NCBI GenBank assembly: GCA_017311185.1
Contig: JAESUZ010001712.1
Span: 1,116,001-1,180,000, forward strand
Source of the DNA: Proteles cristata cristata
Lineage: Eukaryota; Chordata; Mammalia; Carnivora; Hyaenidae
DNA length: 64,000 bases
Direction of reading: 5' to 3'
Position 1 is the stretch's first letter. The number at the start of each line of letters is the position of its first letter. The notes below the pieces were generated by a model, which had not been told where the DNA came from, made no database searches, and was given only the letters and a program-made list of their open reading frames with translations. This document shows, in pieces, positions 2,286 through 47,792 of this stretch. Made by a program: the position numbers and the translations under genes.

Positions 2286-2359
2286 CTGAGAATCTGGAAC
2301 ACCTTCAGCTTCTGTCACAATTACGTGCTTGTCACCATTGTCTTCATCTTGTTCAATTG
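2286..2359 (-). CDS. Internal coding exon C of the same unidentified gene
   Basis: Seen: on the minus strand cttttcctttgctttgctt then aaag precede 74 bp ending CAG, followed by a gtatga donor. Entered in phase 1 (as exon B delivers), it has one open frame of 24 codons after the split alanine codon; the other two frames stop. The peptide begins IEQDEDNGDKHVIVTEAEG and ends VPDSQ. It is acidic and hydrophilic, with no cysteine, zinc-binding or membrane motif, so it is likely a surface loop or disordered linker. It ends in phase 0, so the next exon, beyond the left edge, should start on a whole codon. No family recognised. Confidence 0.86.
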
Positions 2360-2798
2360 CTTTAAGCAAAGCAAAGGAAAAGAATGTTAAATTTTCTTTT
2401 AGATGGCAGTTTGGCAAGAAAAAACAATGTTAGGGAGATTCACAAAATGTAAATGTCAGTGCTATTTTATTATTTGGATGAAAGTTTAATGGCGTTGGGC
2501 ACTTCTCATGTACATTTTCTTGTTTACTGAATCACTGGCAGTGGAAGAGTTTGCTCTCATTTATTCTCTTCATCGGAACCCATCCTGACATCAGCTTGTC
2601 AGGAACTGTGCTTCATTGAAAGGGGATGTAGGGTGTAGTTGAAAGTTTCTATCAAGTTGATCTGAGAACAGTAATTTTTTTTAAACAATGTGGGTTTTTT
2701 GCCTGGTACTTTACGGTCATATAATAAAGAAACCATAATATTGTATATTTAGACTGCTCCGTGCATTGTTAACACAAAATTCCAAACTAGGGAGTCTT

Positions 2799-3020
2799 TT
2801 TTAAAAAAAATTTTTTAACATTTTATTTATTTCTGGGAGAGAGAGACAGCGTGAGCAGAGGAGAGTCAGAGAGAGAGGGAGATACAGAATGTATAGCAGG
2901 CTCCAGGCTCTGAGCTAGTTTTTGGCACAGAGCCCGATGCAGGGCTCGAACCCACGAACCATGAGATCATGACCTGAGCCGAAATCAGACGCTTAACCAA
3001 CTGAGCTACCCAGGTGCCCC
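2799..3020 (-). mobile_element. Feline CAN-SINE
   Basis: Minus-oriented copy: T-rich tail, atttatttctgggagagag, gcaggctccaggctctgag, and head gagctacccaggtgcccc. Near-perfect target duplication aaactagggagtctt (2784-2798) and aaactgggaagtctt (3022-3036). It landed in the L2 fragment that continues at 3022. Confidence 0.93.
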
Positions 3021-3021
3021 T

Positions 3022-3380
3022 AAACTGGGAAGTCTTGAATCAACCTCTTCTCCTGTATCTCCCCCAGCATCTCCCTATCCAACTTCTTATCACCCCTTCT
3101 GCGCTCATGCAGTACCTTCTGAAGACAAAGCTCTTGATCCCACCCTCTCCTTAATACAATCCAGCTGGGGCACAATTGCTAAAATAATCAGTCTCAAAAA
3201 ATACATAACAGGTACCATGCTTTGCTCTATGTTATCGCTTATCTTAACCAAGTATAAATTATCCGTTTTTCATTGAAGGTCTTCCTTGAATTCTCTGGCT
3301 TCCTCCTAATCTCTGACTTCACACTGACATTCAATACAACTCCGATCCCAGCAGAGTGATTTGATTATTTTGCTTTGTCC
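3022..3380 (+). mobile_element. L2 LINE fragment
   Basis: Pyrimidine-rich strand resembling the L2 3' region: aaactgggaagtcttgaatc, then ctcttctcctgtatctcccc and tcctcctaatctctgacttc. Diverged; boundaries approximate. Confidence 0.5.
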
Positions 3381-3389
3381 AGTTTGCTC

Positions 3390-3520
3390 TTTCACCTTAA
3401 AAATATTTACTGAGTGCTGACTGTGTGCCTGGCACTATGGCTACTCTTACGAACAAGGCAGATAAACCGTGACTTCATGAAATATACTTCCTGGCTGGGA
3501 AGAGAGACAGTGGACAACAG
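3390..3520 (+). mobile_element. Ancient LINE-like fragment
   Basis: tatttactgagtgctgactg, then tgtgcctggcactatggcta, resembles the widely dispersed mammalian motif for growth-size ancient CR1/L3-type LINE 3' ends. Family assignment uncertain. Confidence 0.35.
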
Positions 3521-3588
3521 CAACTACTACTACAACTAACAGTAACAATAATGATAATTATAACTATAATAATAAAAATAGTAACATG
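3518..3588. repeat. A-rich trinucleotide low-complexity tract
   Basis: Imperfect act/aat/ata triplets; simple sequence. Confidence 0.7.
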
Positions 3589-3949
3589 GCATTAGAAATG
3601 CCATGCGAAATGGAGAAATGACAGAAAACCGACTGGGAGAGGTCACTTTAGGGAGGGAGGCAGCGATGGTAGTTCCCTGAAGTGACGTTTGTGTGGCAAC
3701 CTCAAGGTTGAGATGGAGCCACCTATGGCAGGTGAGAGTGATAGAAGACAAAAGTGGAGAAAGCACAGCCCACTGTGAATTCAGATTTTAGCCTAAGAAC
3801 ATGGGAAAGCACAAAGTAAATTTAAATTAGAATTGCATGATTTGATATGTATTTTCCAAAGTTCTTTTTGGCTTCTTTGTGGAGAACAGGCTTAAGAGAA
3901 GAGAGAAAGGAAATAGGGAGACCGCTTAGGTGACTCTTGCTGACATCTT

Positions 3950-4120
3950 TTTTTTTTTTTTTTAAGTTTATGTATTTATTTGATAGAGAGAGCATGAGCA
4001 GGGGAGGGGAGGGGCAGAGAGAGAGTGCAGAGCCAGATGTGGGGCTCAAACCCATGAACCATGAAATTATGACCTGAGCTGATGTCGGATACTTAACCAA
4101 CTGAGCCACCCAGGTGCCCC
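3950..4120 (-). mobile_element. Feline CAN-SINE
   Basis: 17-base T tail, aagtttatgtatttatttga, gagcatgagcaggggaggg, and head ccaactgagccacccaggtg. The internal section between the CT region and the tRNA part is shortened. Degraded flanking duplication (ttgctgacatctt / ttactggcatctt). Confidence 0.92.
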
Positions 4121-5180
4121 AAGTTACTGGCATCTTGACTAGAGTGGACGATGGCTCAGACCAGGGACATGGCAATGCGCTGAAGATTTGGAGGATTTGA
4201 GCTGAACTTTTAGACAAAATGGATAACACTTGTCAATGAACTGAATACACTGAGGGACAGGGAGAGATGAAAAGAAGCAATCAAGGATGACTCCTAAGTA
4301 AAATAAGTTATTTCTATCTTCGTGCCACTTATTCTTTTGCCCTCTCCATCAAAAGCAGTGCAAAAACATTATCAACCTTGCTAACAGTGAGGTCACGCAC
4401 TGTACTTAGGGGTTCACCTAGCATTGTTTTGTGTACCAAATACCGTGCTCTGCTCGCCACTCCATAGTTTTTAAAGTATCATTTCATGTTCCCTTTGCTT
4501 TTGTGTAGCCTTTCTGCCTACTGTGAGGGGCTTACCACGGAGCGTACCTCAAATGCTGTGCACACAGTGTGAGCTCTGTAAAAACTAACTGGATGAACAG
4601 TTCCCTCCCCAAGTGACCCTAACGGCACAGCTTGACTACACCCACTTACACAAACTACTTCTTTCATAACTATTTATGAAAAAAGAGGGGAGAGAAATTC
4701 TTCCATTAAACTCCATGAATAACTAGTCTAATGCCTATCATTGAGCATCTAAAGGCAAAGCAGGAACAGCGGAAGTAGACAGAAGCTTTTCTTCTATTTT
4801 CAGGAAAAAGTTCCATTCGTGCTTGTTCAAAGGGACTCCCCTGTGGCTACTGTTTCTCGATTATGAATAAAGTTAAGAATAAAGAAACAGTCTTATGTTT
4901 TCTCTGAAAAACTAGAGGTGAGAATGCCAAGGGGAAAACACAGAGTAACACTGTAAATTCCACTTAAAAAATACAATGGCTATAGAATTTTTTTACTTCT
5001 ATTATTTGCCTTCTACTTAACTAATGGAAACAAGGTAAGTCTTTCCTCAACTTGTAATGGGGAATAGTTCTCCTGGAGGGCAACTAACGTGGGCCAAGTG
5101 AATCCTCTGAAGTGTGAACCATACCTTGGCACTTGATTTACGCTTTAATTTGAACATCTGTTCTTTGAAGTTTTAGTTTT

Positions 5181-5380
5181 TAAATTTTTTTTAAGTTTAT
5201 TTATTTTTGAAAGAGACAGACTGACAGACATCACGACCTGGGGAGGGACAGAGAGAAAGACAAAGAATCCAAAGCAGGCTCCAGACTCCAAGCTGTCAGC
5301 ACAGAGCCCAACACAGAGTTTGAACCCATGACCTGAGTTAAAGTCAGACGCTCAACCAACTGAGCCACCCAGGTGCCCCA
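5181..5380 (-). mobile_element. Feline CAN-SINE
   Basis: Minus copy with tail aagtttatttatttttgaaa and head caaccaactgagccacccag. Target duplication tgaagttttagtttt (5166-5180) and tgaagtttcagtttt (5381-5395), one mismatch. Confidence 0.94.
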
Positions 5381-5395
5381 TGAAGTTTCAGTTTT

Positions 5396-8084
5396 GATAC
5401 AAATGAAGAAAATTAAATTTTGGAATATTTTGCTTACTAAATTCATGTTTTTGTTTTAAAAACAACATTCTGGCACCTAGGCATTTATTATTGCACATTA
5501 CACACCAACATAAGACATGCAGGACAATGAAAAACAATTTCAGAGTTGAGAGCTAATGCTATTTTTTAAGATTTAGGCATGATTCTTAGTTACATATAAA
5601 TAGAAACAAAGCATCAAAGCATAATTAGGATAAAGATTCAGTCCTGTATTTCTAGCTTATTCCAACAAAACAATCAATACTACATTTCTTATCACATCTT
5701 TTAAAGACCTCAAAATTAGTTGAGCAGCACTACAATTCGATTAACAGAGCAAGAATCCACAAACACAAGCAAGTTCAGGGACTTGGCAACATAAGTCAGC
5801 AATCCATCTCCGTGCATATGATGGAGACTCTCAAAGTTCTGATAGACTCTTATCTTCAGCATCTTGATGACAAGAATAGTATGGTCTTTTCCAACATATA
5901 CGTAACATTATTTTCTTGGAAGTACTGAAAAAGTATGATTCCAAGAATATATTTCAGCCAGTAGTTCATATACAACACTTGGGAACAAAAGCATATTTAT
6001 CCTGGACTTCTGAGGATTTGTGATCACCCTGGGAACGCTTTCAATCACCTAAAAGGGAGTCTTGTAGGTACCCTCGAATATGGAGATCAATCAAAAAAAA
6101 AAAAATGTCAGGGAATAGATACAAAGACAACTTTTCTCTTCACACCTCCTAGTGGTGTGGCTCATGTGATAGAAGGAGGAGAAAGCAGTTATTTAGATTT
6201 TTTCAGCTTAATTTTTCTTTTATCTGGTCAGAGTAAGAGTAGGTTGGGAAAATATCCTATGCAAATATTGATTCTGGGACAGTTCCCTCCAGTGGAACAC
6301 GTACACAGGAATGACAGCTTCTGGGATCGAGGAGGCTTGGAGCCTCACTCTCTGCCAACACAAACCATCTCCTTATCTCTCAACACAGAGTCTAAAAGCA
6401 AGAAATGGCCTTTGAAAATAACTGACACAACAAAAGTCACAAGCACAAGGTCTGAAGCATGTATTTTCAATAGTATACATGAAAGCCCACATGAGCACTA
6501 AGTATCTATGTGGGTTAATTAGCACCAATTCACATAAGAGAACTTGGTTTAAATGTACCTATTTGTAAGTCAGCCAAGAGCCATTCCAGATGGACTACTA
6601 CAGATAGCCTCCAAGATTTCTGGGCTTGACTTATTATCACTTCCTTGCTACCTTCAGGAGAATAGGTTTCCTCTCCTCATGACTTACTCGGTTGATTGCT
6701 AAGACAACTTTTCTTAGTAATTCTACTAATAGTATTATTTAAACACAAACAAGATGGACATCCTTTCAAAACAAAACTTACTTAATTTCTAATCAATTTT
6801 ACAAAAGTAAGAAAGAGCTGTTACAACACAACATTAAATGCAAGGATCATAATGTGCTGGTGACTATACTTGAGAGTGTCCTTTACAAACCAAATTATTT
6901 TTTTTTAATTTACACATCAACCAAAAATGTCACTATAAAGAGAAATTTAGCATTTCAAGTCTCAATGTGAGAAATCACCAAATACAGTCAAGAGAAGTAA
7001 TTCACTGAGTACTTTGCCAAGAATTAAAGATTGGGCAATAATACCATCTCAACTTTGTGGCATTTTTACAGAGGAAGTTTTCATAAAGGGTCTCTCATCT
7101 GATGTTCACACATCCTGAAGATGTGGACAGGGAAAATCATCCCCATTTTACAGATGAGGTGAAGTACTGTGTGCTAGCCCTCCCCTGGATAACATATGTA
7201 TCTGTGATGGTGCCAATGTGCATCTGTCAAGGACTGAATGGTACCGGGCAGGTCAAACCACACATCGACAAGTGCATTCGTGTGGGGCCTCACCAGTATT
7301 TTTCATTTTTTCATTTTCTAACGAAACAGAGCAAAAAATATAAAGAATGGAAAGAAACTGAACATCAAAATGCATCGCAACTGGTAACGTCAGGTATTGT
7401 TAACAAATGCGGATGAGATGTGTACCAGGTGGGGCTGTTTTGTGTGTTCAGTGGGTTGTGGGCATTAAAATGCTAGTACTGAGGTGCTTCCAGGCCACAG
7501 CAGGCAGAACCCAGTTCCTCATTATCTAAATAACCAGCTATTTTTTTGTACCATGCCTGGAGAGGGGCCATAATATTTATTTTAGGAGGCCCCTCAACAA
7601 TGCTCCATCCACGTTCAGCAAGTAGTGCATTCCCTCTGAGACGTCATGGCAACAAGCTTACGGCGAGAAATGCTGACAGAGTCTATTTATTTTTGGTTAC
7701 CAACATATAATCACAAATGCTTCAAAATGCTCAAATCTTCTTTAAAAAGTAAGGGGAAAAAGCAGTTGCAGCCTTCATTTCATCCCTCTTTTTTTTTTTT
7801 TTTTTTTTTAGTGTTAAAATTTGAAAACTACTGCTCCACATTCACCATCAAGATTTGTTACAGAGTATTACCATGTGGCCCATTCAGAGTGCTCTTTCCA
7901 CTTCCCTTTGAAAGCCAACCAATGCCTACAACATCTCTGTCCCAACTGCCTTTTCTCAGCCCCATCTGGTTTAGCTTACGAGCTGAACTTAAGACTGTTG
8001 TTTTAAAAACTCTCTTTGCTGGATCATTATCATCCTTGAATCCTCTAAAAATGCAAGCTTCCCGCAGATTCTTTTTCTCTCCCT
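5396..8084. other. Intronic sequence, mostly single-copy
   Basis: AT-rich, without exon signals. It includes an A12 run near 6092 and a short antisense MIR-like piece (ccccattttacagatgaggt) at about 7117-7172. Open frames at 6157-6501, 7102-7416 and 7646-8101 look accidental: no splice context, and poly-T/poly-F content in the last. Confidence 0.45.
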
Positions 8085-8680
8085 GCCTCTTTCCTCGGTG
8101 ATCTTATCCGTTCCTCTGGTTTCAGTTTTCATGATTATACAGGTTATTTCCAAATCTGTGTCTCCAACTCTGCCCTCTCCTCAGAATCCCAGCCCACATC
8201 TCCAGTTACACTCTGAACATTTTCATTTTGCAGACCATTGTGCACCTGCTACATACAAGTGGCTATGATAGTGTGGTGGCACTGCCTCTGTCCCTAGGAT
8301 GTGAGGAGACGAAGGTCTGATCACCAGCATCAGGTCCACTAGATTTCACAAGCCTCTTTCCCTCTTGCAGCATTTCAGTTTATGTCACCACCAGGTGTCT
8401 TTCTGTTCTTCCCTCCCCTCTGCCCTCACATCAGTCTCTCACTAAACCTTGTCACTTCTACCTCTGAAATGTCTCCACCTTCCTTCCTCTCTGTCAGGAT
8501 CAGAGCTCAGGACTGCACCACCTCTCCCCTGGGCCACTGCCACAGCCTCCTAGCAGCCTCATTTATAGTTTGTTCTCTCTTCCACAGACATGCCCAGTTC
8601 CACTTCCAAAAGGTGAGTCCAGTCACACCAGCCCCCCATCCCTTCAGACTCCTGCCTCTCCCCACCCAGAGAATATGAGA
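8085..8680 (+). mobile_element. L2 LINE fragments
   Basis: L2-like phrases on the plus strand: cctcggtgatcttatccgtt, then atttccaaatctgtgtctcc and ccacagcctcctagcagcc. Probably two pieces separated by unmatched sequence near 8230-8440. Confidence 0.5.
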
Positions 8681-8827
8681 GGCACACAGGGGGGCTGAGT
8701 ACGAAGTCAGACTCCAAGGCCCCATCCCTGGTATTCCCGGTGTAGTGGGGCTCAGCCTGGGGCTGAGCTGTTTGGAGAGCTTTGACACTTGTGACCCCTG
8801 CTCTATGAGCCATTCGGGCTGAAGCCT

Positions 8828-8922
8828 CTGATACTAAATAGCTGGCCCAGAATCACACAGAAAGTCAGTGGAGGAGATAAAGTACCCAGGTCTGACTCTC
8901 TACCTGCCCCAATCCATCATGA
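8828..8922 (-). mobile_element. MIR SINE fragment
   Basis: Antisense MIR: aatagctggcccagaatcac, acagaaagtcagtggagga, acccaggtctgactctctac. Confidence 0.7.
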
Positions 8923-10109
8923 AGACTTAGTGTCCAAAATGAATTGAACAAGAGTGAGACTGAAGACAAAGAACACCAGAGCTTTATGGTAAACAGTCTA
9001 ATCAAGAACTGACTTGAATTTCCTACAAGGAGTTCAGTCTGTATTAGTTAGGGCCAAAATGACTTACTCATTGCTAAGTGCTCCTACATACATACCCCTT
9101 TCCTTCAACTCTCACCAGGCTTCCTAAACCCTGCTTTTATAGAAGAGAAGATAATAAATCTTTGCTGTACCAAAGAAACGTATTGCTTTTACTAACATGT
9201 GAATATAGGCGTATTGGTATTCTGGAAATTCACAGCAGTCAGACAACATAATAAATCCATAGTGAGGAAGCTAAAATCAGAGGTAGCTGAACAATTGCCA
9301 TTTTCCCCCATCAGATGCTCCATGCTCTGTACCCTCTGGGGCGGCAGCTCATGCCACAGAGAGACCAGCCTGTACTGCTTCCTTGCTGCCCGGCTGCCAG
9401 CATGATTTATCCTGCCCTCAGGCAGACGGGATTCCCCTTCAATTCTCATGCCTTTGTCTTGTAGCCTAGATGCTTCAAATTTCCTCTCCTCCACTTTGTA
9501 ATAGGTTTTTATAGTGTTTTCTTTTGAATACCATTTAATACATGTCCAGTCAATGGAAAAGTTATTCAACAGAGAAAAATGAAAATGTCAAAAGAGCAAA
9601 GTGCATCCTGTATCAAATCCTCTAATTAGATCATAAATATCTGCTCCGTTGGCCAGAGTAATAAAGAACTAATCAGTACGTGAGCCCAGTAAGCTCTTCG
9701 GTTGCCCTTCTTCTGAGGAAACGTATCAGAAAAAAACAAGTTGCCTTTTAATGCAAAGATGGCTTGTACATGATCCAACTAAAATAAGACCTCAATTAAA
9801 AAAAAAGTCGAGTTAACCTTAGCTACCGTTTTTCTTCAGCGTTTATCTTCAGAGACAGAAAAGCTTTCAATTTTTAAGTGCCTTACAAGGATATGATCTG
9901 GCAACTGGACAGGTTCAGGCCAATCTGCTATAATCATGTACTAATAGGTATAAGCAGCAGTGGTACTGGGCTGGTGCAAGATGATTATTCATTCAAAAAC
10001 ACCCTAGTGAATTCTTTACTCTCAATCTCTCTCAGGAATTAAAAATGTAAAAGATTGATCTCAGGGAATAAAAGTAATTTCTGAGTCTAACCATGTGCCG
10101 ATGTGAAGC
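8923..10109. other. Single-copy intronic sequence
   Basis: No exon or clear repeat identified. Overlapping open frames on both strands at 9192-9569 have no splice support. Confidence 0.45.
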
Positions 10110-10262
10110 TACATACTTTATGGCATCTCCTTTAACTGCCCATCTCTAACAAGCCCCATGGGCATGTGCCATTAGCTCCGTTTTGCAGTGTAAGAAACTG
10201 AGCCTCCAGAAGCCACTAAGTCCTAGCAGGTGGCTAAGCTAGAACTGAACCCGAGTATCCTG
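10110..10262 (-). mobile_element. MIR SINE
   Basis: Nearly full antisense MIR: ttagctccgttttgcagtg, gaaactgagcctccagaag, gcaggtggctaagctagaac, ctgaacccgagtatcctgat. Confidence 0.75.
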
Positions 10263-12904
10263 ATTTGCTTTTCACAGCTACAGAAATCTGCTTCTAGGAC
10301 TGTAGAAAAAGAAAACACAGCCAGTCATATCTACATGGACACTTAACTAAGGCTTTATCTTCTTTTTAAAAATAACATTAGAGGTTTCTGCCACTCATAT
10401 GATGCTCATAAGCTCTTTTTATTCCTGAATTGTCAGTCATGCACTGCTAAATCTTCTCAGTGACATTACAGGGAAATTCTAAACCATACAGAGGAACCAC
10501 CAAGAATTCCCTAAGAGTTACCGTGTTTGCAAATACAAGCAAAGACACCAAATAGTTCAATCAATATAACAATCAATGGAGGGAGGGCAGCTCAAGGGGA
10601 GTCCAGGGAAAGATGTGAAAATTTCCATAACCCTCAACTAATCTATCCCGCTAGAATTTAAAGAAACTTCTTTTTATTACACATTTGAGGAAAAGTATGG
10701 CACCATTGCTACAGTCCTTCTAGCATATGACCTTTGTCAAGCTATATCCATTCACTGAAGTTCAACTTTACTACTTGAAAAGGAGAGGCGTTAACAATCA
10801 CCACCCTACAGGCTGGGTATGTGGAAGAAAGGATGGACATAAAATGCTTAATCAAGGGTAGCTACCTTACACTCCAACAGGCAATGTGCTTTTTCTCTTT
10901 TGCATTTTCATCCATGGATGAGGCCTTTCTCCTAATCAGACCCACCCTCTATTGGGGTAGAGTGCAAAATAAGGAACATAGAAACAAAGTCATTAATATT
11001 TGTATTCTGCCACCCGAGTTAGAATTTTGCCTTGAAAGGGCAAAATTTACAAAGAAATGTTACCTTCCTTTGCACATCAAGAACCAACTCTGGAAGTGCC
11101 AAATCTCAAATCCCTCTCTCCTGAATGCTAAGCCACAGGCTTGTCCCCCAGCAAGGAGCTGTCTGAAAATAATGGGCTAGAAAAGCTCAAGGCAGTTCCC
11201 AGGATACTCCAAGTGGACTGTCGGGTTCAGAGGGCAGAAGGGGGCAGTAAAGAGGCAGCAGAGATGCAAGGAGCTAAGAGCTAGGGGGCCTCAACTTCCT
11301 GTCTGGGCTTGGGTTCTCAGCAGGTGAAGCCAGGTAGATGGTTGGAGGGGACACCAAAAACAGGAGAGCACGTTTATATACAGATTGAGACTTAGCACAC
11401 GGAGGAGACTGTATCACAGTCCACCACCAGCCCCACATGGGGGTCAGCGTGCTCACAGTGGATTCAGCAGTGAGCACAGGAAAGCTGAGGGCAGACAAGG
11501 GGTTAGACGAGGTACAGACCTTATCATTCCTGAGTTACTCCTCTTTCCCAGGATGGGAAATCTGCAAGGTCTCAAAAGTTTCATATGCCCTGGGGACAGA
11601 GGCCTGCAATGGAGCCTACTTTATAAAGGGCCATAGGCTAGAAGGAATTTGCAGCAGGGAACAGTGGAGTTTACAGCCCCAGCTAGAGGTAACATAGGGC
11701 AAGATGACCAGACAGGCCCAGAGCCCCTAACCTAGCTGAGATGGGCCTCTGACTGTTACGGGCACCTCTGCAGAGACAAGAGAAGCCCAGGAGCACCGTG
11801 GGATTCCAAAGACCCTCCCATGCCAGGGACTAAGTGATCCAAATGGGGGTATTTTAAACTCAGCCCAGGCAGGAGCAATATCTTGAACAGACTATTTATC
11901 ACAAAAAAGAGTTCAACTCAAAAACAGCTAAGATACTGCTCTCTGGTAGTAAGTAGCAGCTTGTTGGGGACCATAGAGCAGTTGTCAAAAATAAAGACTA
12001 TAGCATACCCCACCTACATTCAGTGTAAAGAATAATTCTGAGAATCTGTTAATGAGCACATGAGTATCAACATAAGGACTTTAATGGCTCACAAAATAAT
12101 CTCTTAGATTATCAGATAATAAAACGAAGACAAAATACATGTGGGAAGAAAAAGTTTTGATACATCACCAAACTATCTTTCACGTTCATGTCAAAGGCAC
12201 TGAACTCCATTTCTTCTCAAATAGAAGTATATGTATTTTGACTTTTCAGATGAAATTGATAAAATTATGGGTCATTTTATTTGTCTTTCTTCTTGAAATA
12301 CCAAGGTAACAAACAACTGTACTCAAGCAGGTCCCGTGAAAATTTCCTAGGAGGGACCTAAACCACCCAAATAAATGTGACCTTTGGACAAAACTGTCCA
12401 TCTGGTTTTAACACTAACCCTGAAATCAGTGAATTCATGTAGGCTTAATGTTACCTGCAAAAAGAAGCAACTTCAGTCACTTGGGCTTAGGTACAAATGC
12501 TAAGTGTGAATTCTATGTCTGTAGTTAGTTTCAGGGATGAGTCGAAGAGGACCAGAGGGTGCGAGGGGCCCACTGTCTAAGCCTACGGCCCAGGTGTGCT
12601 GCTCGAGCACCAGGAAGCTCAGTAATGGAATCTGCCCTTCCCTGACCAGACAAGGTAGACACAGCACTCCCCGGCGACCCCAGGCTGTTGAGACAATGCC
12701 CCCACACCCCTACACTGTTAGCAAGAGAGGCTCTCAGCCAGAGCTATTGACAATCTCCAAACTTCCTTTGAGAACCCTAACTGAAGGGTGGGGAAGTTGG
12801 TTTTATTGCTAGTATGTGACAAATTTGTATTTACTGTATAAGGCTACCTTTGGAGAGGAAAATCACCTGCACCTAGTTTCACCTTTGGAACTATACTATA
12901 TGAA
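10263..12904. other. Intronic sequence with a GC-richer patch
   Basis: Positions 11150-11870 and 12530-12800 are more GC-rich than the surroundings and contain several overlapping short open frames. I see no matching splice sites or familiar repeat. They could be old LTR or DNA-transposon remnants too diverged to name. Confidence 0.4.
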
Positions 12905-13135
12905 GGGACGCTTGGGTGGCTCAGTCAGTTAAGCGTCTGGCTTTGGCTCAGGTCAGGATCTTGCGTTCGTGGGTTCGAGCCCCATGTTGGGCTCTGTGCT
13001 GACATCTAGCTCAGAACCTGGAGCCTGTTTCAGATTCTGTATCTCCCTCTCTCTCTGACCCTCCCCTGTCCACACCGTCTCTCTCTCTCTCTCTCTCAGA
13101 AATTAAAAAAAAAAAAAAAACATTAAAAAATATAT
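12905..13135 (+). mobile_element. Feline CAN-SINE, nearly full length
   Basis: Head gggacgcttgggtggctcag, B-box-like gggttcgagccccatgttg, long (CT)n near 13076-13098, and an A16 tail. No clear target duplication was found. Confidence 0.94.
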
Positions 13136-13949: not shown

Positions 13950-14113
13950 GGCAAAGTGTGGCACCTAAGTCACCTAGGGGTGAGGGCTACCTAAAGATTC
14001 AGATACCAGGGCCTCCACTCATGCTTACCTGCAGTTACGGAGGAGGAGCAGGGCAGGAATTAGAAGTGCTACAAATTAACTGCGATGCAAATTAAATTTG
14101 AGAACCACTGCTT
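13950..14113 (-). mobile_element. MER5A-like hAT-Charlie DNA transposon
   Basis: Contains cctaagtcacctagggg-type sequence and ends ttgagaaccactgctt, the terminal inverted repeat sequence typical of MER5A. Non-autonomous, diverged. Confidence 0.65.
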
Positions 14114-26836: not shown

Positions 26837-26885
26837 CAGACTTCCTTGCTTTCAAAGCAATCACAGCTGCCAGCTCTCTCTGCAC
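26837..26885 (-). CDS. Internal coding exon B of the same unidentified gene
   Basis: Seen: on the minus strand the tract ttttttttcctcctaatatc and then ttatcag precede 49 bp ending in G, with a gtgagt donor (a full consensus match). It starts in phase 0, directly compatible with exon A, and ends in phase 1. It encodes VQRELAAVIALKARKS plus the first base of an alanine codon completed by exon C. The peptide is amphipathic and probably helical, continuing the helix begun at the end of exon A. Because 49 is not a multiple of 3, skipping this exon would join A to C out of frame and meet a TAA stop at the 13th codon of exon C. It is therefore probably constitutive, or its skipping would be a poison event. 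Family unknown. Confidence 0.85.
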
Positions 26886-33713: not shown

Positions 33714-34430
33714 TTCTTTCTTTTTTTTTTTTTTTTTACAAAAAGTTTATTGTCAAGTTGGTTTCCATATAACACCCAGTGCTCATCCCCACAAGTGCCC
33801 TCCTCCATGCCCATCTCCCCCCTTCCCCCCCCCCACCCCCATCAGTCCTCAGTTTGTTCTCAGTATTCAAGAGTCTTTCATGGTTTGCCTCTCTCCCTTT
33901 CTCCCACTATTTCCCCCTTCTTCTCCCCCATGGTCCTCCATTAAGTTCCTCCTAATCCTCCTATACATGCAAACATATGATATTTGTCCTTCTCTGCCTG
34001 ACTTATTTCGCTCAGCATAACACCCTCAAGGTCCATCCATGTTGCTACACATGGCCAGATTTCATTGTTTCTCATTGCCATGTAGTATTCCATGGTATAG
34101 ATAAACCACATCTTCTTGATCCATTCATCTGTTGATGGACACTTAGGCTCTTTCCATGTTTTAGCTATTGTGGAGAGTGCTGCTATGAACATTGGGGTAC
34201 ATGTGCTCCTATGCATCAGCATTTCTGTATCCCTTGGGTAAATTCCTAGCAGTGCTATTCCTGGGTCATAGGGGAGTTTTATTGTTAGTTTCCTGAGGAA
34301 CCTCCACACTGTTTTCCAGAGGGGCTACACCAGTTTGCATTACCACCAACAGTGTAGCAGGGTGTCCGTTTCTCCACATCCTCGCCAGCATCTAGAGTCT
34401 TCTGATTTGCTCATTTTAGTCACTTTGGTG
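33714..34430 (-). mobile_element. Recent 5'-truncated L1 3' end
   Basis: Antisense L1 3' end with a poly-A tail (T run at 33721-33738 on the plus strand) and an exact 15-bp target duplication aattaacacattttt at 33699-33713 and 34431-34445. It contains the C-terminal part of ORF2 in an unbroken frame, then a C-rich 3' UTR (C-run near 33822-33839). Only about 0.7 kb of L1 was copied in. Perfect duplication and an intact frame suggest a fairly recent carnivoran insertion. Confidence 0.93.
33941..34309 (-). pseudogene. C-terminal fragment of L1 ORF2 protein (122 residues)
   Basis: Unbroken frame matching the C-terminus of L1 ORF2p, the reverse transcriptase/endonuclease protein. Recognisable pieces are PYDPGIALLGIYPRD, CTPMFIAALSTIAKTW and KKMWFIYTMEYYMAM, ending near IGGLGGT. 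Only the domain downstream of the reverse transcriptase (including the cysteine-containing tail) is left. Endonuclease and RT domains are absent, so it cannot act in retrotransposition. The methionine at its start is internal to ORF2, not a true start codon. Confidence 0.92.
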
Positions 34431-35235: not shown

Positions 35236-35254
35236 CAAATCCTTCACTTAAGGT

Positions 35255-35545: not shown

Positions 35546-35649
35546 AAAACCTCAAATGTGATAGAATCCAGAAGATCTGGATGGTGTTCAGTGTGGAGTA
35601 CCATCTGTTTAGGTTCATGAGGAGCAGACAGTGTCCACAGGAGGATAAG

Positions 35650-38542: not shown

Positions 38543-38543
<1 letters not shown>
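36421..38543. other. Intronic sequence, with a possible HAL1/L1 remnant
   Basis: Mostly single-copy. Positions 37295-37465 (ttgtttaaaatagcaaaaga, aaccacaatgttcaaaaata) resemble an old HAL1/L1 3' end. No convincing exon. Confidence 0.4.
38287..38375 (+). repeat. Direct tandem duplication, unit about 46 bp
   Basis: gaatgggttctatacactca is followed by cactttctgaacaaatg; then gaatgggttcaatacactcg and cgctttctgaacaaatg repeat the unit, with 3-4 substitutions. Confidence 0.85.

Positions 38544-38545
<2 letters not shown>

Positions 38546-38594
<49 letters not shown>
38546..38594 (+). repeat. (GT)n microsatellite
   Basis: About 24 uninterrupted GT units. Probably length-variable. Confidence 0.97.
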
Positions 38595-38595
<1 letters not shown>

Positions 38596-38732
38596 CATGT
38601 TGCGTTTAGGGATTTATCCCCAGGATGACGAAAACCATTCTGATGTGCAATAGATATAAATCATATAAGCATTTTTAATTGACAAAAAATAGGAATCTAT
38701 CATTTGGTTATCTGTTCAAATACTGACAGTCA

Positions 38733-38929
38733 TGTGGGTGCCTGGGTGGCTCAGCTGGTTACAAGTCTGACATCAGCTCAGGTCATGATCTCACTGTTTG
38801 TGAGTTCAAGCCCCACATTGCACTGTCAGTGCAAAGCCTGCTTGGGATTGTCTCTCCCTCTCTCCCTCTGCCCCTCCCCCACTTGTACTCTCTAAGTGTA
38901 CAAATAAACTTTAAAAATTGTTTTAAAAT
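38733..38929 (+). mobile_element. Feline CAN-SINE
   Basis: Head tgggtgcctgggtggctcag, gagttcaagccccacattg, tail acaaataaactttaaaa. Target duplication atactgacagtca (38720-38732) and atattgacagtca (38930-38942). Confidence 0.94.
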
Positions 38930-38942
38930 ATATTGACAGTCA

Positions 38943-40729
38943 CGGGTTAGTGAAGTGTCACTGTGAGATCATATCTGAGAAAAACTGAAGGTTTTCTAGC
39001 TGTCCAAGTGATCCCAGAGACCTATAATCCACAGCCCAAGACTCTTCAGAAACTAGCTAATGAGGGGAGCTCTAAACAACAGTGAAGGAAGGTACTAACA
39101 AGTCCCTTGGCTCCTTGTAAAGGACAAGAACAATGGATACCATTCCAGATACGTGCTACAATTCCGCTGGTGCCTTTTTGATGTTCTTTGAAACCAGGTC
39201 TGTCTTAGTCTAGGGCCTCATTTGACACTTTTTCTCAAAATTCAATCTACTTGGCCTTCCCCCAAATCACACTGTAGCTCTTAAACCCCTGGAAAAATTG
39301 AAGGCAAGGTAAGGATTCCAAGTAGGAATTTTCTGTTCCCTACAGATAAGAAATATAAGGTAACAAGATGTTCATGGTCCTGTAGCAGCCAGACAGAAGG
39401 TTAGTTGTTCCCTGGGGGATTAACTTACTTTTATTCTCTGAGCAAACATGCCCACTCAAGTCCCTGATAGACTAAGAAAAGGAAGATTAACTACACTCCT
39501 TTTCTCCATTCTCCAGAAAGGAAGAGGCAGATAGCCAGGAAAAAGGGGTGTGTGGAAACTACCATTTCAGTGTTTTAAAAAATCTATTTCTAAATATGGT
39601 AAAAAATCCTCACTGGATTGTGCTTATCATGTGTGAAATGTGACTGACTCTCCCCACTCTCACTACCCTAAGATTGTTCCCAAACCTTGCTAATTTGGCA
39701 CACAATCTTAAGTAGATCTCTAAAATTCTGAGCTTCTAAAGATTACTCAAAACCCAGATCCCAGGCTACTTCTGCTCTCTACACTAATACCATTTTTTAA
39801 GTTTCCAATTGAAAAAGCTGCCACTGTTATCTTCAGACACTACTGTTCAAAAGGGAATTTCTCTAATATATCAAACCCAATGCACAGATTCAAGTATGAA
39901 CTGAGAGAATCCTAGCCCCATTACACGCTTCCCAAAGCCTGTGAAAGGCACATCCTTAGAGAAAAAGACTGAAGCTTCAGATCAAAAGATTGGACATGGC
40001 AAATGAGAGGAGATCCAAATGTTCAAAAGCAGAACACAAGAACAGGCAATAGCAGAGGAAGAAAAGAGCCAGCAAGGCAGAGGATCTCGAAAAGTCTGCA
40101 TCCTTGAGTTCCCTCGTGTACTGCCTGTTCATTAAAACCCAGTTCCTTGTGTCTCCGTAATAAGCATTTCCCACGAACTCTAAGGAAAAGACAAATTGGG
40201 AGAAGAATCAGACAAAGGCCCAAGTTAGGTGCAGGTCTTAGTGAATGAGAGTAAACTAGGTCTGTTCTAACCAGAAAGTAGGATCCAAGATGGAGAAAAA
40301 GTGAAAACAAGGTTTTAACTACAAAAATGCTAGAAATCATGTGAGAACAAGTTCATAGGTGATGTGAAAACTGATGGAGCTAAGTCACAACTTCTGGACA
40401 CTGAGCAGGGAAAAATGTTTCTGTGACAGTGACGATGGGCAGCAGGCAGTTAAAACCATGTTTTTTGTTCCTAGTGACATGTAAAAAATTTCATAGCAGG
40501 TTTTTTTTCTCTTATACTTTCACCAAAAATTATACATCCTAACATGTATTTTTGCTTGGCGGGGGGGGCTTCATTTGCTTCAAGGTCTTTCAGAACTTTT
40601 AGCAGACACTCCATTTATAATTTGGCAAGACTTTTTTTTTCAGCTCAGTGGTATTTCTCAGAGGATGAGACTGTGCCTGAAGACCGTATGAGAAGGAATT
40701 TAGAAATTCCATTAAAAGCATCATATGCA
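38943..40729. other. Single-copy intronic sequence
   Basis: No exon or named repeat. A G10 run near 40560 and several accidental short open frames. Confidence 0.4.
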
Positions 40730-40915
40730 CGGGTGCCTGGGTAGATCAGTGGTCAAAGCTCAACTCTTGATTTCAGCTGAGGTCATGATCTCACTGCTGT
40801 GAGATTGAGCACCATGTCAGGGAGCCTGCTTAAGATTCTCTCTCCCTCGGTCCCTTCCCTACTCATGCGTCCATGCTTATTTTCTCTCCTCTCTCTCTCT
40901 GAACAAACAAACAAA
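40730..40915 (+). mobile_element. Feline CAN-SINE
   Basis: cgggtgcctgggtagatcag, gctgaggtcatgatctcact, short CT tract, tail gaacaaacaaacaaa. Target duplication catcatatgca (40719-40729) and caccatatgca (40916-40926). Confidence 0.92.
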
Positions 40916-40926
40916 CACCATATGCA

Positions 40927-42600
40927 GAACTCTGAGGATAAAGCTGGATGAACTGAAGAAAATGAGCAAGTGGATAGAGCAGACACATACAGAGAAATCA
41001 TCTAAACTGATAAGAATGTTAAACTAAATCAACTCGGGAGAAAGAATACAAGGTAGTGAGAGTGTCTAGTTAATGGTCCCAGAGTTTTAGATTTTGTCCT
41101 CTCCTCGGTGATCTCTCTTCCTAAATCTGCAACGCTTGATTTGTAATTTTAAGTCATCTCCCAAGATATGCCCATAAACCCTTCATCACTGCTACTACCA
41201 GGTTAATGTTTAATTGCAGACACTCAACACTGTTCTTTTTCACCACCTAAGTGAGGGCTCACTTCAGGACCAAGCAGCCTAGAGTACCACACAAGACCAC
41301 CCTACTCTTTTTGTAAGTGCAACTAATGTAACCATCCCACCAAACAGGCATCTAATATACAGAATTCACAACCTATCCTAACTTACATTACTTGAGTAGC
41401 TTGACAATTAGACTGTGTGAACAAAAATCACAAATTTCACTTAAGCTCAGATAATGTATTTGTGTCATCTTATCTCTATAACTTCCATCATGAAAATTAT
41501 TCTAAAGAAAGAGAAATAGCCTAATAGGTTTATTTTGGACACTGGCCTTAAGTAAGCAAGAGACAGAAGCCTAGAATCAGCTTTATCTCTCACTCAAGGA
41601 TGCTCATGTTTCCATTTCCTGTCTTTGAACATTTCCAAGTACTTAGTTCTTCTCAAAATTTAGCTTACTTCAGAAATTTACATTCTAAGATGGTTTTCAA
41701 ACCAACATTTAATTCACTATAAATTCTCCCCCTACATTTAATTTACCTTGGATTGTAATAAAAACACAAAAGCTGGATCATCAATTCTGAATGCTTTTGT
41801 TGTGAACACTGTTAGAATTCATGTTTAAAAAAAATGCTCAGGACTTCAAGGATAAGAAAGGGTAGGTTGTAATTCAAGGGCTCTTTTTAGCTGTTCATCT
41901 TTATCAAACCAAGATCCACAGTAAAAGAGAAAGAAAAGGTTTTCAAGTTAACAAAATTTGTAGGGTCAGAAGATATCAGAAAAACAGCTAAGGTGCTGAG
42001 GCAGAAACCATACGTACAAACAGGGAAACTCTTTTCCGATAATAATGCCCAGAGGGTTTCTGTAGACTTTCTATAATACAGGGTGTCTACTAGAGCCATG
42101 TTCTTTCCCCGTAAACTGAAAACTTCTTACAGAGTCTTACTGTTAAGGTTTTTCGATGTTAGGTACTTGGGAGAGTAGCTCTTTCCTGAAAATCACTAGT
42201 AACATGGCTAGAACATTTTTATCATTCGTGTTCGTGTAAACTTAACAACTATAAACCTGACTGAGTTATCATGACATTTTTATTTCTACACATGCACTGT
42301 CTTCTTATGTTCCTTGAATATAAAAAATGACTCGTGAGATTTTCTTCCAGGGTAGAACATCAGGTATGTTTTTTTTAGAGGACAGGACCTTCCCCTTGAT
42401 GAACCAAAGCTGGAAGAATAAACTACTGGCGTTAAAGAAATGAACAATCTCTTGTAAGACCATATATACAAAGCTCCCAAGTTTGAATAACAAGAGGGGA
42501 ATTAAAAAGCACAAAAAAATCATACTGCTAGAGATTACCACTCCCTTTGCAGTGCCCCCAGACACAAACCCTTGAAGAGCAGATTAACAACTCCACACTG
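40927..42600. other. Single-copy intronic sequence
   Basis: AT-rich; no convincing exon or repeat. Open frames on the minus strand at 41887-42099 and 42286-42565 lack splice context. Confidence 0.4.
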
Positions 42601-42830
42601 TGGGGCACCTGGGTGGCTCAGTTGGTTAGGTGTCCAACTTCAGCTCAGGTCATGATCTCACAGTTGTGGGTTCAAGTCCCGCATCGGGCTCTGTGCTGAC
42701 AGCTAGCTCAGAGCCTGGAACCTGCTTCGGATTCTGTGTCTCCCTCTCTCTCTGACCCTCCCCTGCTCATGCCGTCTCTTTCTCTCAGAAATAAATAAAA
42801 CATTAAAAAAATGTAAAAAAAAAAAATAGG
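42601..42830 (+). mobile_element. Feline CAN-SINE, nearly full length
   Basis: Head ggggcacctgggtggctcag, gctagctcagagcctggaac, ctctgaccctcccctgctca, A-rich tail. Target duplication acaactccacactg (42587-42600) and acaattccacattg (42831-42844). Confidence 0.95.
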
Positions 42831-42844
42831 ACAATTCCACATTG

Positions 42845-43338
42845 CGTGTCACTTTTGTTCATCCTTAATGTGTTTGGGGGTCATGGTAGATAAGAATTGA
42901 TGTGCATAAATATTCTCCTTCCTACATGGTGTTTACACCTACGTCACAAAGTTTTGATGCCACTGCCATAGGAATGACTACATTGTGAAGACATGAGGCA
43001 CAATGATTCCTTCACAAACACTTATACAATGCATGAAGGACTTTTATAATTTAAGAGACTGTCCAGTCCAACAACTTAACCAATGACACATTGTTGGAAG
43101 AATCAAGGTCCTCAATTTCACTTCAATGATATTTTCACTATCCTAGACCAATGACCCATGGATTTAAAGAGATGAAATTTTCTTTTTTGTACTTTATTCT
43201 CATCACTAGATACCACTACTCCCATACCTTACCTCAATCCATTCAATCTTTTAGCCTGGAGATTATTTGAGTAAGATTACTTCAACCAAATATATAGCAA
43301 ACACTTTGCTGTCTATCCCACCTTTTCAGGGGCTTTCT
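42845..43338. other. Single-copy intronic sequence
   Basis: No exon or named repeat. Confidence 0.4.
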
Positions 43339-43516
43339 AAAAATTTTTTTAATGTCTTTATTTTTGAGTGAGAGAGAGACAGAGCGCAAGCTGGAAAGGG
43401 GTAGAGGGAGACAGAGACACAGAATCTGAAGCAGGCTCCAGGTTCCAATCCAAGGCTCAAATTCATGAACTGAGCTGAAGCTGGACACTTAACCGACTGA
43501 GTCACCAAGGCACCCC
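43339..43516 (-). mobile_element. Feline CAN-SINE with internal deletion
   Basis: Tail aatgtctttatttttgagtg, gaagcaggctccaggttcca, head gactgagtcaccaaggcacc. Part of the middle is missing. Flanked by tcaggggctttct / tcagaggctctcc. Confidence 0.92.
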
Positions 43517-43559
43517 TCAGAGGCTCTCCTGAATTTTATTTTCATAGTATAAACCATTC

Positions 43560-43880
43560 AGTTATTTTTCTCTCACGGTCCTCTCATCTTCCTTCTCTTA
43601 CTGTGGATGCTCCCCAGGGCTCCACCTACCACTCTGCTCTTCAAGTGGCAACCTCTCTGTGACCGGTACTTGTCACTTTAGCCCCAACCTCTCTATGCTC
43701 CAGATTCACATGTCCAGGTGTTTCTTGAATGTTTATATATTTTATGTTTCTATGTCCTCAAACTCAGTATGTCCAAACTCTATATGTTTCCTTCCAAGTA
43801 TTTTACTCAACTTCCTACTTGTATCATCACTTTTCCATTCATTCTGACTTCTCTTCCACCTTCCACCTTCACCTAGTCAT
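43560..43880 (+). mobile_element. L2 LINE fragment
   Basis: cctctcatcttccttctctt, caaactcagtatgtccaaac, tcttccaccttccaccttca: L2 region upstream of the 3' end, diverged. Confidence 0.55.
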
Positions 43881-44041
43881 ACTGATTTTTTAAAAAATTC
43901 TCTGTGATCCCTTTTGAACTCATTTTTCTTTTGGTTCCCACAAATACCACAATAAAGTAGTTTTTTGTCAGCCTTTCAGTCTCCCCCTCTTCAACTCATC
44001 TTTTTCCCTTCTTTTTTTTCTTTATCTTTTCTTCTTTCTTT

Positions 44042-44130
44042 TAAATAAGCTCTACACCCAACCTAGGGGCTTGATCTCACAACTCTGAGATCAAAAGTTG
44101 CATGGTCTACCAACTAAGCTAGGTGTTCAT
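44042..44130 (-). mobile_element. Older, short CAN-SINE
   Basis: taagctctacacccaaccta, ggggcttgatctcacaactc, tgagatcaaaagttgcatgg, tctaccaactaagctaggtg: the tRNA-like part of an older carnivoran CAN-SINE subfamily, distinct from the other copies here. Flanked by catctttctttt-like sequence. Confidence 0.8.
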
Positions 44131-44554
44131 CATCTTTCTTTTTTTCTTAAATGTCTATTCCATAATGTTAATATGTTGTTCAAAAAGTCTTTCACTTTTC
44201 TTAGCCAGGACCTTCTCTAGCCAGTTGGGCATCTCAGTATTTTCCCTTTCTACTCTTTTATTCCTTCACCTGCACACAATAAACCCCACTGCTAGAGTAC
44301 ACATCCTACTAATTACCACATGTTCAAATCTTGACTGCCTTCAACTGTAGTTCAAGTCTCCTCAGTAACGCTTTCTGTTACTGTTCCTGAATCTACTATA
44401 CACCACTATACTTAGTACTCAACTGCCAATCGCTTTGTACCTTAACTCTCTGTCTTCCTGGTATGGCTATAGGAAACATCTTATAGGTCTTTGCTGCTTC
44501 TGCAACTATCCCAGTAATATATTCCATTACAAAGAAAATGAGGCATAGTAGTTA

Positions 44555-44805
44555 AGAAAACATAATTAGGAAGTAGAAAATTCTGAGTTTAGATCCTGGC
44601 TTTGTTCCTTTTTAAGTGAATGACCTTGGGCAAGTTACTTAACCTCTACAAACTTTCCTATCTATACAACAGAGATAATGCCCACCTACTTCATAGGATT
44701 GTGAAGCTGAACAGAATGTGTATACATGTGTATGTACAAACAAACACAATGTTTGACACAGTATCCGGTCCACAGTGAGTGCTTTTTAAATAGATGGCTA
44801 TAATG
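44555..44805 (+). mobile_element. MIR SINE, nearly complete
   Basis: ttctgagtttagatcctggc, atgaccttgggcaagttact, taacctctacaaactttcct, acctacttcataggattgtg, gtccacagtgagtgcttttt. The best-preserved MIR in the window. Confidence 0.9.
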
Positions 44806-46324
44806 GTTCTGCATACAACAGGTACTCCTCGGTGGTCAACAGTTTAAACTGCATAATCTACAGATTCAGTGTAACCCCTGTCAAAATTCCAATGGCATTT
44901 TTCACAGAAATAAGAACAAACAACTGTGAAATTTGTATGGAACCACAGAAGGTTCTAAAGAGCCAAAGTAATCCTGAGAAAGAAGAACAAACCTGGAAGC
45001 ATCATGCCCCCTGATTTTAAACTGTTGACAAAGCTATAGTAATCAAAACACTATGGTACTGGCATAAAAACAGACATGCAGATCAAAGAGAATAAAGAGC
45101 TTAGACATAAACCAACCCACATATGGCCAATTAATGTACAGCAAAGAATATACAATGAAGAAAGGATGATCTCTTCGTTAAATGGTGTTGGAAATACTGA
45201 ACAGCTGCATGCAAAAGAAGCTAGATCATTTTCTTACATCATACACAAAATTCAATTCAAAATGGATTAATGACTTGACTGTAAGACCTGAAAGACCACA
45301 AAACTCCTAGACATTGTAACCCCTTTGACATTGGTCTTGGCAATGATTTTTTGGATACAATACCAAAAGCAAAAGCAACAAAAGCAAGAATCAGTAACTG
45401 GGACTATATCAAATTAAAAACCTTCTGTACAGCAAAGGGAAACCAATAAAATGAAAAGGCAACTTGCTGAAGAGGAGAAAATATTGACAAGTCATATATC
45501 TGATAAATATTTACAAGTCACATGTCTACCAAAATATATCAAGAACTCATACCATGCAACAGAAAAAAACCAACCAACCCAACTAAAAACGGGCAGAAGA
45601 CCTAAAGAGTAAGACAGAGGACCAAGAGGTAATTGAGAGGACGTTCAACATCACTAATCATCAGGGAAATGCAAATCAAAACCACAAGGAGATATTACCT
45701 CACACCTATGAGAAAGCTATCTTCCAAAAAACAAACAAACAAAAACCAAACAAACCAAGAAATAACAAATGCTGGAGAGAATATAGAGAAGAAGGCACTT
45801 TTGTGCACTGCTCATGGGAATGTAAACTGGCATAGCCACTTTGGAAAACAGTATGGAGGTGCCTCAAAAGATTAAAAATAGAACTACCATAAGACCCAAC
45901 AATTCTATTTCTGGGTATTTATCCAGAAAAAGCAAAACACTACAACATATATGCACCCCCAAGTTCACTACAGCATTATTTACAATAGCCAAGATACTGA
46001 AATAGCTTACAGGCCCACTGATAGATGAATGGCGAAAACAGATGTGGTATCTATATGTAATGGAACACTGCTTTGTCATAAAAAAGAGTGAGATCTTACC
46101 ATCTGTGACAACATGGATGGTACTTGAAGCATTATAATAAGTGAAATCAATCAGATAAAGAGAAATAGCATGTGATCTCATATGTATGTATAATCTAAAA
46201 ACAAGAACAACCACCACAAAAAACAAGCTCATAGATAATAGAACAGATCGGTGGTTGCTAGAGGTGAGAAATTCAGGGTTGGGAACATTACGTAAAGGGA
46301 GTCAAAAGGTACAAACTTCCAGTT

Positions 46325-46540
46325 CACCTGGATGGCTCAGTTGGTTAAGCATGTGACACTTGGTTTCAGCTCAGGTCATGATCCTGTGGTTTGTGAGTTT
46401 CAGTTCCATATCAGGCTCTGTATAGACAAGGGCAGAGCCTGCTCGGGGTTCTCTCTCTCCTTCTCTCTCTGTCCTGTCCCTGCTCGTGTGCACACATGCA
46501 TGTGCACTCTCTCTTTCTCAAAATAAACTTAAACAAAAAA
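46325..46540 (+). mobile_element. Feline CAN-SINE inside L1
   Basis: Slightly 5'-shortened head (cacctggatggctcagttgg), gctcaggtcatgatcctgtg, tail caaaataaacttaaac. Exact 16-bp target duplication gtacaaacttccagtt at 46309-46324 and 46541-46556. Confidence 0.95.
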
Positions 46541-46696
46541 GTACAAACTTCCAGTTATGAAATAAATGTGTTGTGGGATACACTATACAGTATGGTGACC
46601 TATGGATATATGAAAAGTTGCTAAGAGAGCAAATCTTAAAAGTCCACATCACACAAAAAAAGTATTCTGTATTACATATTATGGTAATTATTTTCA

Positions 46697-46702
46697 TACA
46701 CA

Positions 46703-46754
<52 letters not shown>
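46697..46754 (+). repeat. (CA)n microsatellite in L1 3' UTR
   Basis: About 28 CA units with one TA interruption near 46709. Produces spurious cysteine/valine and histidine/threonine open frames. Confidence 0.96.
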
Positions 46755-46755
<1 letters not shown>

Positions 46756-46835
46756 CGAATCATTAGGTTATATACCTGAAACTGATGTAACATTGTATGT
46801 CAATTATACCTCAATACAAATAATTTAAATTTTAA

Positions 46836-47725
46836 AAAAACCTGCAAAGGTCATGTTAAATTTTTTTCTTAACATGCTTCAAGATTCTGTTTCACATTAA
46901 GTTTTTATACCACCAGTCACTGTATTTAGTCAAAAACTACTTTTCTAAGTTACATTCCAGAACAGTAGGAAAGGCAACTTTTAACTTTCAAGTGTGCATA
47001 GATGCTAAGACTTGGTGTATAAAACTCTGTGAAAGTCAGTTTCATCCATGTACATAATCCAGCATAATTTTCACCAATTACCATTTCAATAATGCAGTTA
47101 AAACAAACTAAAGCATCTTTGGGAAGGCTAGAAAAGTTTCCAGAAAGTCAAACCAATGGATAAAGATTTTATCAGATAGGATTACGAGAGCCTGTCAAAA
47201 ACTAGGGCTCAGTGATTAGCAACCACAGCTTGCTTTTTGTATTATGAAGGGCATGCATGACCTTTTCTTCAACTAACAAGGCAATTACCCACTCTGATTA
47301 GTGGCTTTAGTAAACAATGAAAATGTTGCAACCTAGTACATTAGAAATGAACGATCTGGCCTTTTGTTAGTTGAGGTAATTCTTTTTTTTTTTTCCCTCT
47401 AATGAAACCTGTCGTATTTTCTCCTTTGTACAACAGGTCACAACATCCCCTAGGTTAAGTCATACTATATTTTAAAAATCAAATGTCACGCCTCCACTAA
47501 GGTTTCAGGAACTTTCCACTAGGAATATGTATGATCTTGCTGGAGAAGCTGCATTGAGAGTAGTAAATCAAGGTCATGTTTCCTTTTGACTTGATGTGGG
47601 TCTCCTATATCAACATGCAACCACAGAGCAAGTGTCTCTCTGCCACTACCCATACTGCCTCCCTTTGAAGACCCTGGCCTTCATTATCTTCCGCACCCTC
47701 AGGCAGGGAAACTGCAAGGCCTTAC
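46836..47725. other. Intronic sequence downstream of exon A
   Basis: Apparently single-copy. A stretch at 47160-47370 (tgattagcaaccacagcttg, caaggcaattacccactctg) looks unlike repeats and could be conserved non-coding sequence; untested. Confidence 0.35.
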
Positions 47726-47792
47726 CGCAGACGTTAGCCGGGCAAGAATTTCATCACTGCTTTCTTCTGAGTCTTCGATTTTCTGATGAGAC
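47726..47792 (-). CDS. Internal coding exon A of an unidentified large gene
   Basis: Seen: on the minus strand a pyrimidine-rich stretch ends in ttttcacag, followed by 67 bp and a gtaag donor. The exon starts with the last base of a split codon and ends on a complete codon. The other two frames contain stops. The open frame gives 22 residues: an acidic, serine-rich part (IEDSEESSDE) followed by EILARLTSA, which looks like the start of a helix. SEESSDE has serines in an acidic setting of the kind casein kinase 2 uses (inference). The end phase (0) matches exon B, and the two exons together give one helix-prone run. I do not recognise the protein and assign no function. The upstream exon must lie beyond 64000 or have been missed in 47.8-64 kb. 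Confidence 0.83.

Follow-up and report, generated by a model that had tools for sequence, protein, structure and literature searches.

The window discussed here is a stretch of 64,000 nucleotides from Proteles cristata cristata (GenBank assembly GCA_017311185.1, contig JAESUZ010001712.1, positions 1,116,001 to 1,180,000 of the forward strand). An earlier note had described in it three phase-matched minus-strand exons (A, B, and C) of an unrecognised gene, and the locus raises two questions: to which gene do these exons belong, and what has become of the protein segment that they encode? On sequence grounds, the first has a simple answer. Exons A–C are assigned to RAPGEF5 (REPAC), a known gene with annotated entries in Felinae and Hyaena hyaena as well as in Mus, Equus, and further groups, which refutes the description of the gene as unrecognised; the find itself is ordinary and, as a gene find, of no importance. 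The second question concerns ancestry, as A–C together with the next exon look like the worn remnant of a domain of EPAC, its cyclic-nucleotide-binding domain B (CNB-B). Taken together, it is very highly probable that the window is an inner part of RAPGEF5, that A–C are included in the long mRNA as eroded EPAC CNB-B exons, and that there is no switching by cyclic adenosine monophosphate (cAMP).

Identity of the Three Exons

Each of the exons lies between an AG acceptor and a GT donor on the minus strand, and joined in one frame they read SHQKIEDSEESSDEILARLTSA + VQRELAAVIALKARKS + AIEQDEDNGDKHVIVTEAEGVPDSQ, 63 residues without a stop. Their span, sizes, borders, and phases (Table 1) are as first described, and so is the single open frame, out of three, in A and in C; exon B has two of three frames open. 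Such features are not rare. A scan for acceptor-donor pairs spaced 40–110 bp apart, using home-made weight matrices with the weakest of A–C as thresholds, returned 13 pairs on the minus strand of the window, of which 11 have an open frame, and 12 plus-strand pairs, seven of them open, as would be seen if the three pieces were chance splice-like segments and not exons. Splice signals alone are insufficient; it is homology that lifts A–C above chance, since RLTSA, the end of exon A, is followed at once by the exon-B peptide in 115 of the 132 proteins compared, a set that includes many near-identical mammals and birds as well as seven exon-A reads (P0006-P0012) that leave exon B out, matching exon A only and continuing with other sequence. 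Near-identity with annotated RAPGEF5 proteins over A–C, together with the colinearity of the neighboring exons, refutes the explanation by chance, the likelihood of which we consider negligible.

The 63-residue peptide matches P0001 and P0002 (jgi), in which B and C are contiguous (38/41 residues), and A, B, and C stand contiguous in P0004 (Apteryx, RapGEF5-like). Searches of the flanks with P0003-P0005 (tblastn) placed the next upstream exon 100 bp past the window end and the next downstream exon ~9 kb before its start. Joined, the five exons give 161 codons in one frame, the other two frames containing stops. A protein search with a padded 161-residue model of these exons found 279 proteins at E ≤ 0.001 among 656 candidates; among the 120 matches listed, a count by eye gave 111 with a name, ~97 of these names being RAPGEF5 or RPGF5; the rest of the list consisted of unnamed products and of hypothetical or DEP domain-containing proteins. 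Two Felis catus entries, P0014 (which bears the name DEP domain-containing protein) and P0016 (RAPGEF5, Felinae), each align with the model over its full length (100%) at 99% identity, with all residues of exon A identical and a single difference from Felis in exon C (T for A). The earlier note had proposed as a check that one protein should hold the joined residues contiguously, and annotated RAPGEF5 proteins, such as P0004 and Felis P0014/P0016, do so. C8orf34, an initial guess, was dropped once the homologues were named RAPGEF5. The gene is also known as MR-GEF and GFR.

The exons of P0014, P0015, and P0016 are colinear on the minus strand across ~220 kb (tblastn, 314 kb), beginning 48 kb past the window end, where the RAPGEF5 start codon lies (window coordinate +112,088), and reaching the C-terminus 108 kb before the window start, near −108,278. 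Exons encoding the DEP domain lie upstream of A–C (P0014 DEP match at 5.9e-14) and the RasGEF_N and RasGEF parts lie on exons downstream (Pfam PF00617 and PF00618 in P0015 and P0016), A–C encoding what lies between DEP and RasGEF_N. Inside the window, A–C are the sole places matched by P0014-P0016. The claim that they are the only coding content in 64 kb therefore stands as far as the RAPGEF5 models go, these placing no further exon in the window, which is a result for the models and not for every possible exon; a LINE-1-like open reading frame on the minus strand stands apart, and we return to it below.

Agreement of the RAPGEF5 product with other species was highest for Hyaena hyaena P0015 (685/690 aligned residues identical); the figures for the others are 699/720 for Felis P0016, 697/718 for Herpailurus P0018, 637/651 for Lynx P0089, and 677/710 for the giant panda P0019, counts in which some mismatches stand at match edges and some proteins have an extra exon or one exon fewer. 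For example, six of the 21 Felis P0016 mismatches fall in an extra exon that is not in the Hyaena isoform. From residue agreement among these five proteins, the source genome is therefore probably feliform but not felid, and closest to hyaena rather than cat among the five species compared.

A Probable Eroded Cyclic-Nucleotide-Binding Domain

Searched against the PDB, the 161-residue model matched EPAC2 at E 4.8e-10 over residues 1–155. A profile built from nine sequences of our choosing, spanning A–C and the next exon with the DEP domain excluded, matched nothing but EPAC1 and EPAC2 in the PDB at E ≤ 10 (six distinct sequences, E 8e-6 to 1.9e-4). We take the EPAC2 region matched by the profile to be the second cyclic-nucleotide-binding domain, CNB-B. 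A search of the same genome with the EPAC2 stretch gave seven matches, of which contigs C4367 and C3528 hold three each and the last, a weak one, lies elsewhere. These loci are called RAPGEF4 (C4367) and RAPGEF3 (C3528) by sequence rather than annotation, the former on the basis of 20/20 exon-b residues and of 98% in exon d. The four RAPGEF5 exons follow the same order and phases as those of RAPGEF4 and are shorter by 18, 12, 3, and 21 nucleotides, all whole codons (Table 1). In the frog P0005 (RapGEF5-like), five extra residues precede LARLTSA (..IQAL) and align with EPAC2 IHIKAL, IQAL standing at IKAL; they are missing from eight amniote rows of alignment A3.

Table 1. Positions, lengths, and phases of the RAPGEF5 exons, their counterparts at the RAPGEF4 and RAPGEF3 loci, and other features of the window (coordinates in the 64,000-nucleotide window).
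Feature	Position	Strand	Length	Phase	Sequence or remark
Exon A (RAPGEF5 exon 6, counted from the MRMAV start exon)	47726-47792	−	67 bp	2 to 0	SHQKIEDSEESSDEILARLTSA; ends LTSA; counterpart of RAPGEF4 a
Exon B (RAPGEF5 exon 7)	26837-26885	−	49 bp	0 to 1	VQRELAAVIALKARKS; VQREL...; counterpart of RAPGEF4 b
Exon C (RAPGEF5 exon 8)	2286-2359	−	74 bp	1 to 0	(A)IEQDEDNGDKHVIVTEAEGVPDSQ; counterpart of RAPGEF4 c
RAPGEF5 exon after C			126 nt	0 to 0	AGVMC...; counterpart of RAPGEF4 d
RAPGEF4 exon a			85 nt	2 to 0	ends after LSTT
RAPGEF4 exon b			61 nt	0 to 1	VKREL...
RAPGEF4 exon c			77 nt	1 to 0
RAPGEF4 exon d			147 nt	0 to 0	GVVC...
RAPGEF3 exons b, c			61, 77 nt		same borders and phases as RAPGEF4; two of four matching places
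Stretch resembling the P0002 tail	2018-2071	−			SRKDRQTYSTFHRKQGK*
Open reading frame	33941-34309	−	122 residues		no Pfam match at E ≤ 0.001
Weak tRNA match	53148-53232	+			34.3 bits (gathering score 29)
Weak tRNA match	62586-62670	+			29.7 bits (gathering score 29)
Imperfect AC/AT-rich tandem repeats	61377-61884		~500 bp		several overlapping periods

Two signs of common descent are present, namely intron positions and phases shared with EPAC and a DEP-free similarity beyond chance. A–C could otherwise be a RAPGEF5-specific linker without EPAC CNB ancestry, the similarity to EPAC arising only through the next exon and short helices, and such an origin would suit the lack of an EPAC match for A–C alone and the strong divergence of exon C. 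However, each of the four exons agrees with its RAPGEF4 counterpart in intron phase, and VQRELAAV at the start of exon B lines up with VKRELAGV and VKRELAAV, which open the corresponding exons of RAPGEF4 and RAPGEF3, making a linker of separate origin improbable in our estimation.

It should be noted that several results weigh against reading A–C as spliced RAPGEF5 exons descended from CNB-B. The joining of A, B, and C in Proteles itself is a step that we infer, and 41 of the 731 residues of P0015 were left unplaced (690 aligned). Nine distinct PDB sequences matched the 161-residue model at E ≤ 10, and three of them are unrelated (E 0.36 to 0.75), the other six being EPAC1/EPAC2. The 63-residue peptide alone found no EPAC in the PDB, its single match being DHX16 (E = 1), and no Pfam family. 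The cNMP_binding family was absent both for the 161-residue model and from the 25 families that were listed for alignment A2 (35 members); in Pfam, the model had nothing above the cut-offs and one sub-threshold match, DUF6382. Exon C has little sequence similarity to EPAC2, and its homology is drawn from position, length, and phase.

If A–C do descend from CNB-B, the domain has lost a part that matters for its ligand. Eight EPAC2 residues (APRAASIV) have no counterpart in RAPGEF5 in the profile alignment, including the arginine of DAPRAAS. The missing stretch is, we assume, the phosphate-binding cassette, with its arginine presumably contacting cAMP; an intact cassette was not found in the RAPGEF5 segment. 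With these eight residues absent from the phosphate-binding region, ordinary cAMP binding by this segment would be unlikely.

Conservation and Proposed Role

Alignment A2 comprises 35 rows, whose names indicate 21 mammals, nine birds, four reptiles, and one frog. Compared with the Felis row, the remaining 34 have a mean identity of 80.4% in the exon preceding A, 82.6% in A, 97.2% in B, 50.9% in C, and 85.6% in the exon that follows. Exon B, with which the putative CNB-B relic begins, is the most conserved of the three, and exon C is fast-changing and acidic.

A role may be proposed on this basis. RAPGEF5 is a Rap/Ras-family guanine nucleotide exchange factor (GEF) related to EPAC1/EPAC2, and the window lies within the gene, which is on the minus strand. 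Exons 6–8 would be spliced into the long mRNA form and would supply the segment that links the DEP domain to RasGEF_N and the catalytic RasGEF domain. This segment would no longer bind cAMP, in which case RAPGEF5 would not be cAMP-switched as the EPACs are. It may separate the DEP domain from the exchange domain, serving as a helical and acidic spacer and perhaps also as a docking surface, the latter being suggested because exon B is so conserved.

The literature describes REPAC as being without a CNB domain (review PMC8746471) and REPAC, encoded by RAPGEF5, as being without the EPAC1/2 regulatory sequences (review PMC12785204). According to PMC8534922, BLAST with EPAC CBD-B found PKA/PKG, EPAC1/2, and RAPGEF2/6, and RAPGEF5 appears in the GEF tree; two further papers assign a DEP domain to canine RAPGEF5 (PMC9323784) and report a nonsense variant of RAPGEF5 in foals (PMC7544121). 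No printed description of eroded CNB exons in RAPGEF5 was found in the part of the RAPGEF5 literature that was covered, and the words of the 63-residue peptide were not found in the literature searched. The relic would slightly amend the way RAPGEF5 is usually described, in that the gene still appears to carry CNB exons in eroded form. It also bears on how RAPGEF5 arose from an EPAC-like ancestor, and exon B emerges as a constrained element.

Exon A and the Circular RNA circRAPGEF5

Exons 2–6 of RAPGEF5 measure 51, 107, 122, 169, and 67 nucleotides here, summing to 516. In print, circRAPGEF5 is given as exons 2–6 with 516 nucleotides (PMC10498551) and as comprising five exons and 516 bp (PMC8935214). 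Exon A would be the last exon of circRAPGEF5 (hsa_circ_0001681), because both the length of 516 nucleotides and the exon numbers match. The exon 2–6 block amounts to 172 codons without a stop, an endless open frame if circular, and both ends of the block are present in 60 of the 132 proteins (172 residues in 59 and 171 in one). With no stop in the 172-codon circle, circRAPGEF5 could be translated round and round. Term searches in part of the literature found no mention of circRAPGEF5 translation.

A more far-reaching proposal is that all four CNB-B exons were kept, their borders included, and trimmed in frame, forming a repurposed ligand-free contact surface, and that circRAPGEF5 is endlessly translatable as well; we advance this combination only tentatively and lean toward doubting it. 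If the relic has been repurposed, selection would still be holding its first helix (exon B) nearly unchanged from frog to mammal.

Variant Transcripts and Other Features of the Window

Some homologues carry parts of the segment in another setting. In P0002, exon C is followed by the tail GGTDGQTSSTSQRKQGK, which a minus-strand stretch of the window resembles (Table 1); an AATAAA motif lies ~175 bp beyond that stretch, and an alternative last exon in another mammal is possible. Exact words of the tail gave no match in 264 kb, and a looser tblastn search found a counterpart at 2021-2056, which was rejected as an exon here because its acceptor is very poor (−8.68). A scan of viral contigs with P0002 gave 30 stretches that fit a pattern, none encoding a relative. 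In P0003 (a 123-aa lgn protein), 34 N-terminal residues (MRKQRQ...CPLKK) stand directly before the exon-B peptide, so in some mammal a different first exon may lie upstream of exon B.

With these two odd homologues, some mammals may have further transcripts that include B and C, and one could suppose that a new gene or promoter, not annotated so far, is nested in RAPGEF5 and uses exons A–C in another transcript. However, strand, frame, and splice sites are all as in RAPGEF5, the P0002 tail meets the poor acceptor just mentioned, and the P0003 start has no convincing counterpart in the 314 kb searched. We consider a nested gene very improbable and assign A–C to RAPGEF5 itself. In P0089 (Lynx pardinus), exon C is joined directly to LDEEV..., with the AGVMC exon, the last part of the CNB relic, skipped; this is either an exon-skipping isoform or a gene-model effect.

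The 122-residue open reading frame of the window looks like the end of LINE-1 ORF2. The two weak tRNA matches are probably tRNA-derived short interspersed nuclear elements, and the tandem repeats give rise to spurious open reading frames on both strands. The plus strand shows an excess of C over G in the window (+0.070) and in the flanking gene parts (+0.067, +0.014), with −0.012 downstream of the gene, a pattern that fits minus-strand transcription. The skew evidence is weak, because A over T is also positive downstream (+0.029) and one in-gene 20-kb bin has C/G reversed (−0.037).

Comparison With Known Systems

Set beside RAPGEF5 (REPAC) as annotated in homologues with DEP, RasGEF_N, and RasGEF domains, the locus has the same exon order, strand, phases, and residues, and no substantial difference was seen, as the near-complete agreement with Hyaena hyaena P0015 (685/690) illustrates. 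It shares with circRAPGEF5 (hsa_circ_0001681) exons 2–6 and the length of 516 nucleotides, ending with exon A, whereas the human exon numbering is equated with ours through length and the circle in this species would be a prediction from gene sequence. With CNB-B of EPAC1/EPAC2, similarity lies in the VKREL, GVVCTLHEGDD.G...LV, and NCHFLRVDK stretches, and intron positions and phases are shared. In contrast, the RAPGEF5 segment is 18 codons shorter than that of RAPGEF4 over four exons, has eight residues fewer in the phosphate-binding region and, in exon C, a variable acidic stretch where the EPACs have a beta-strand exon.

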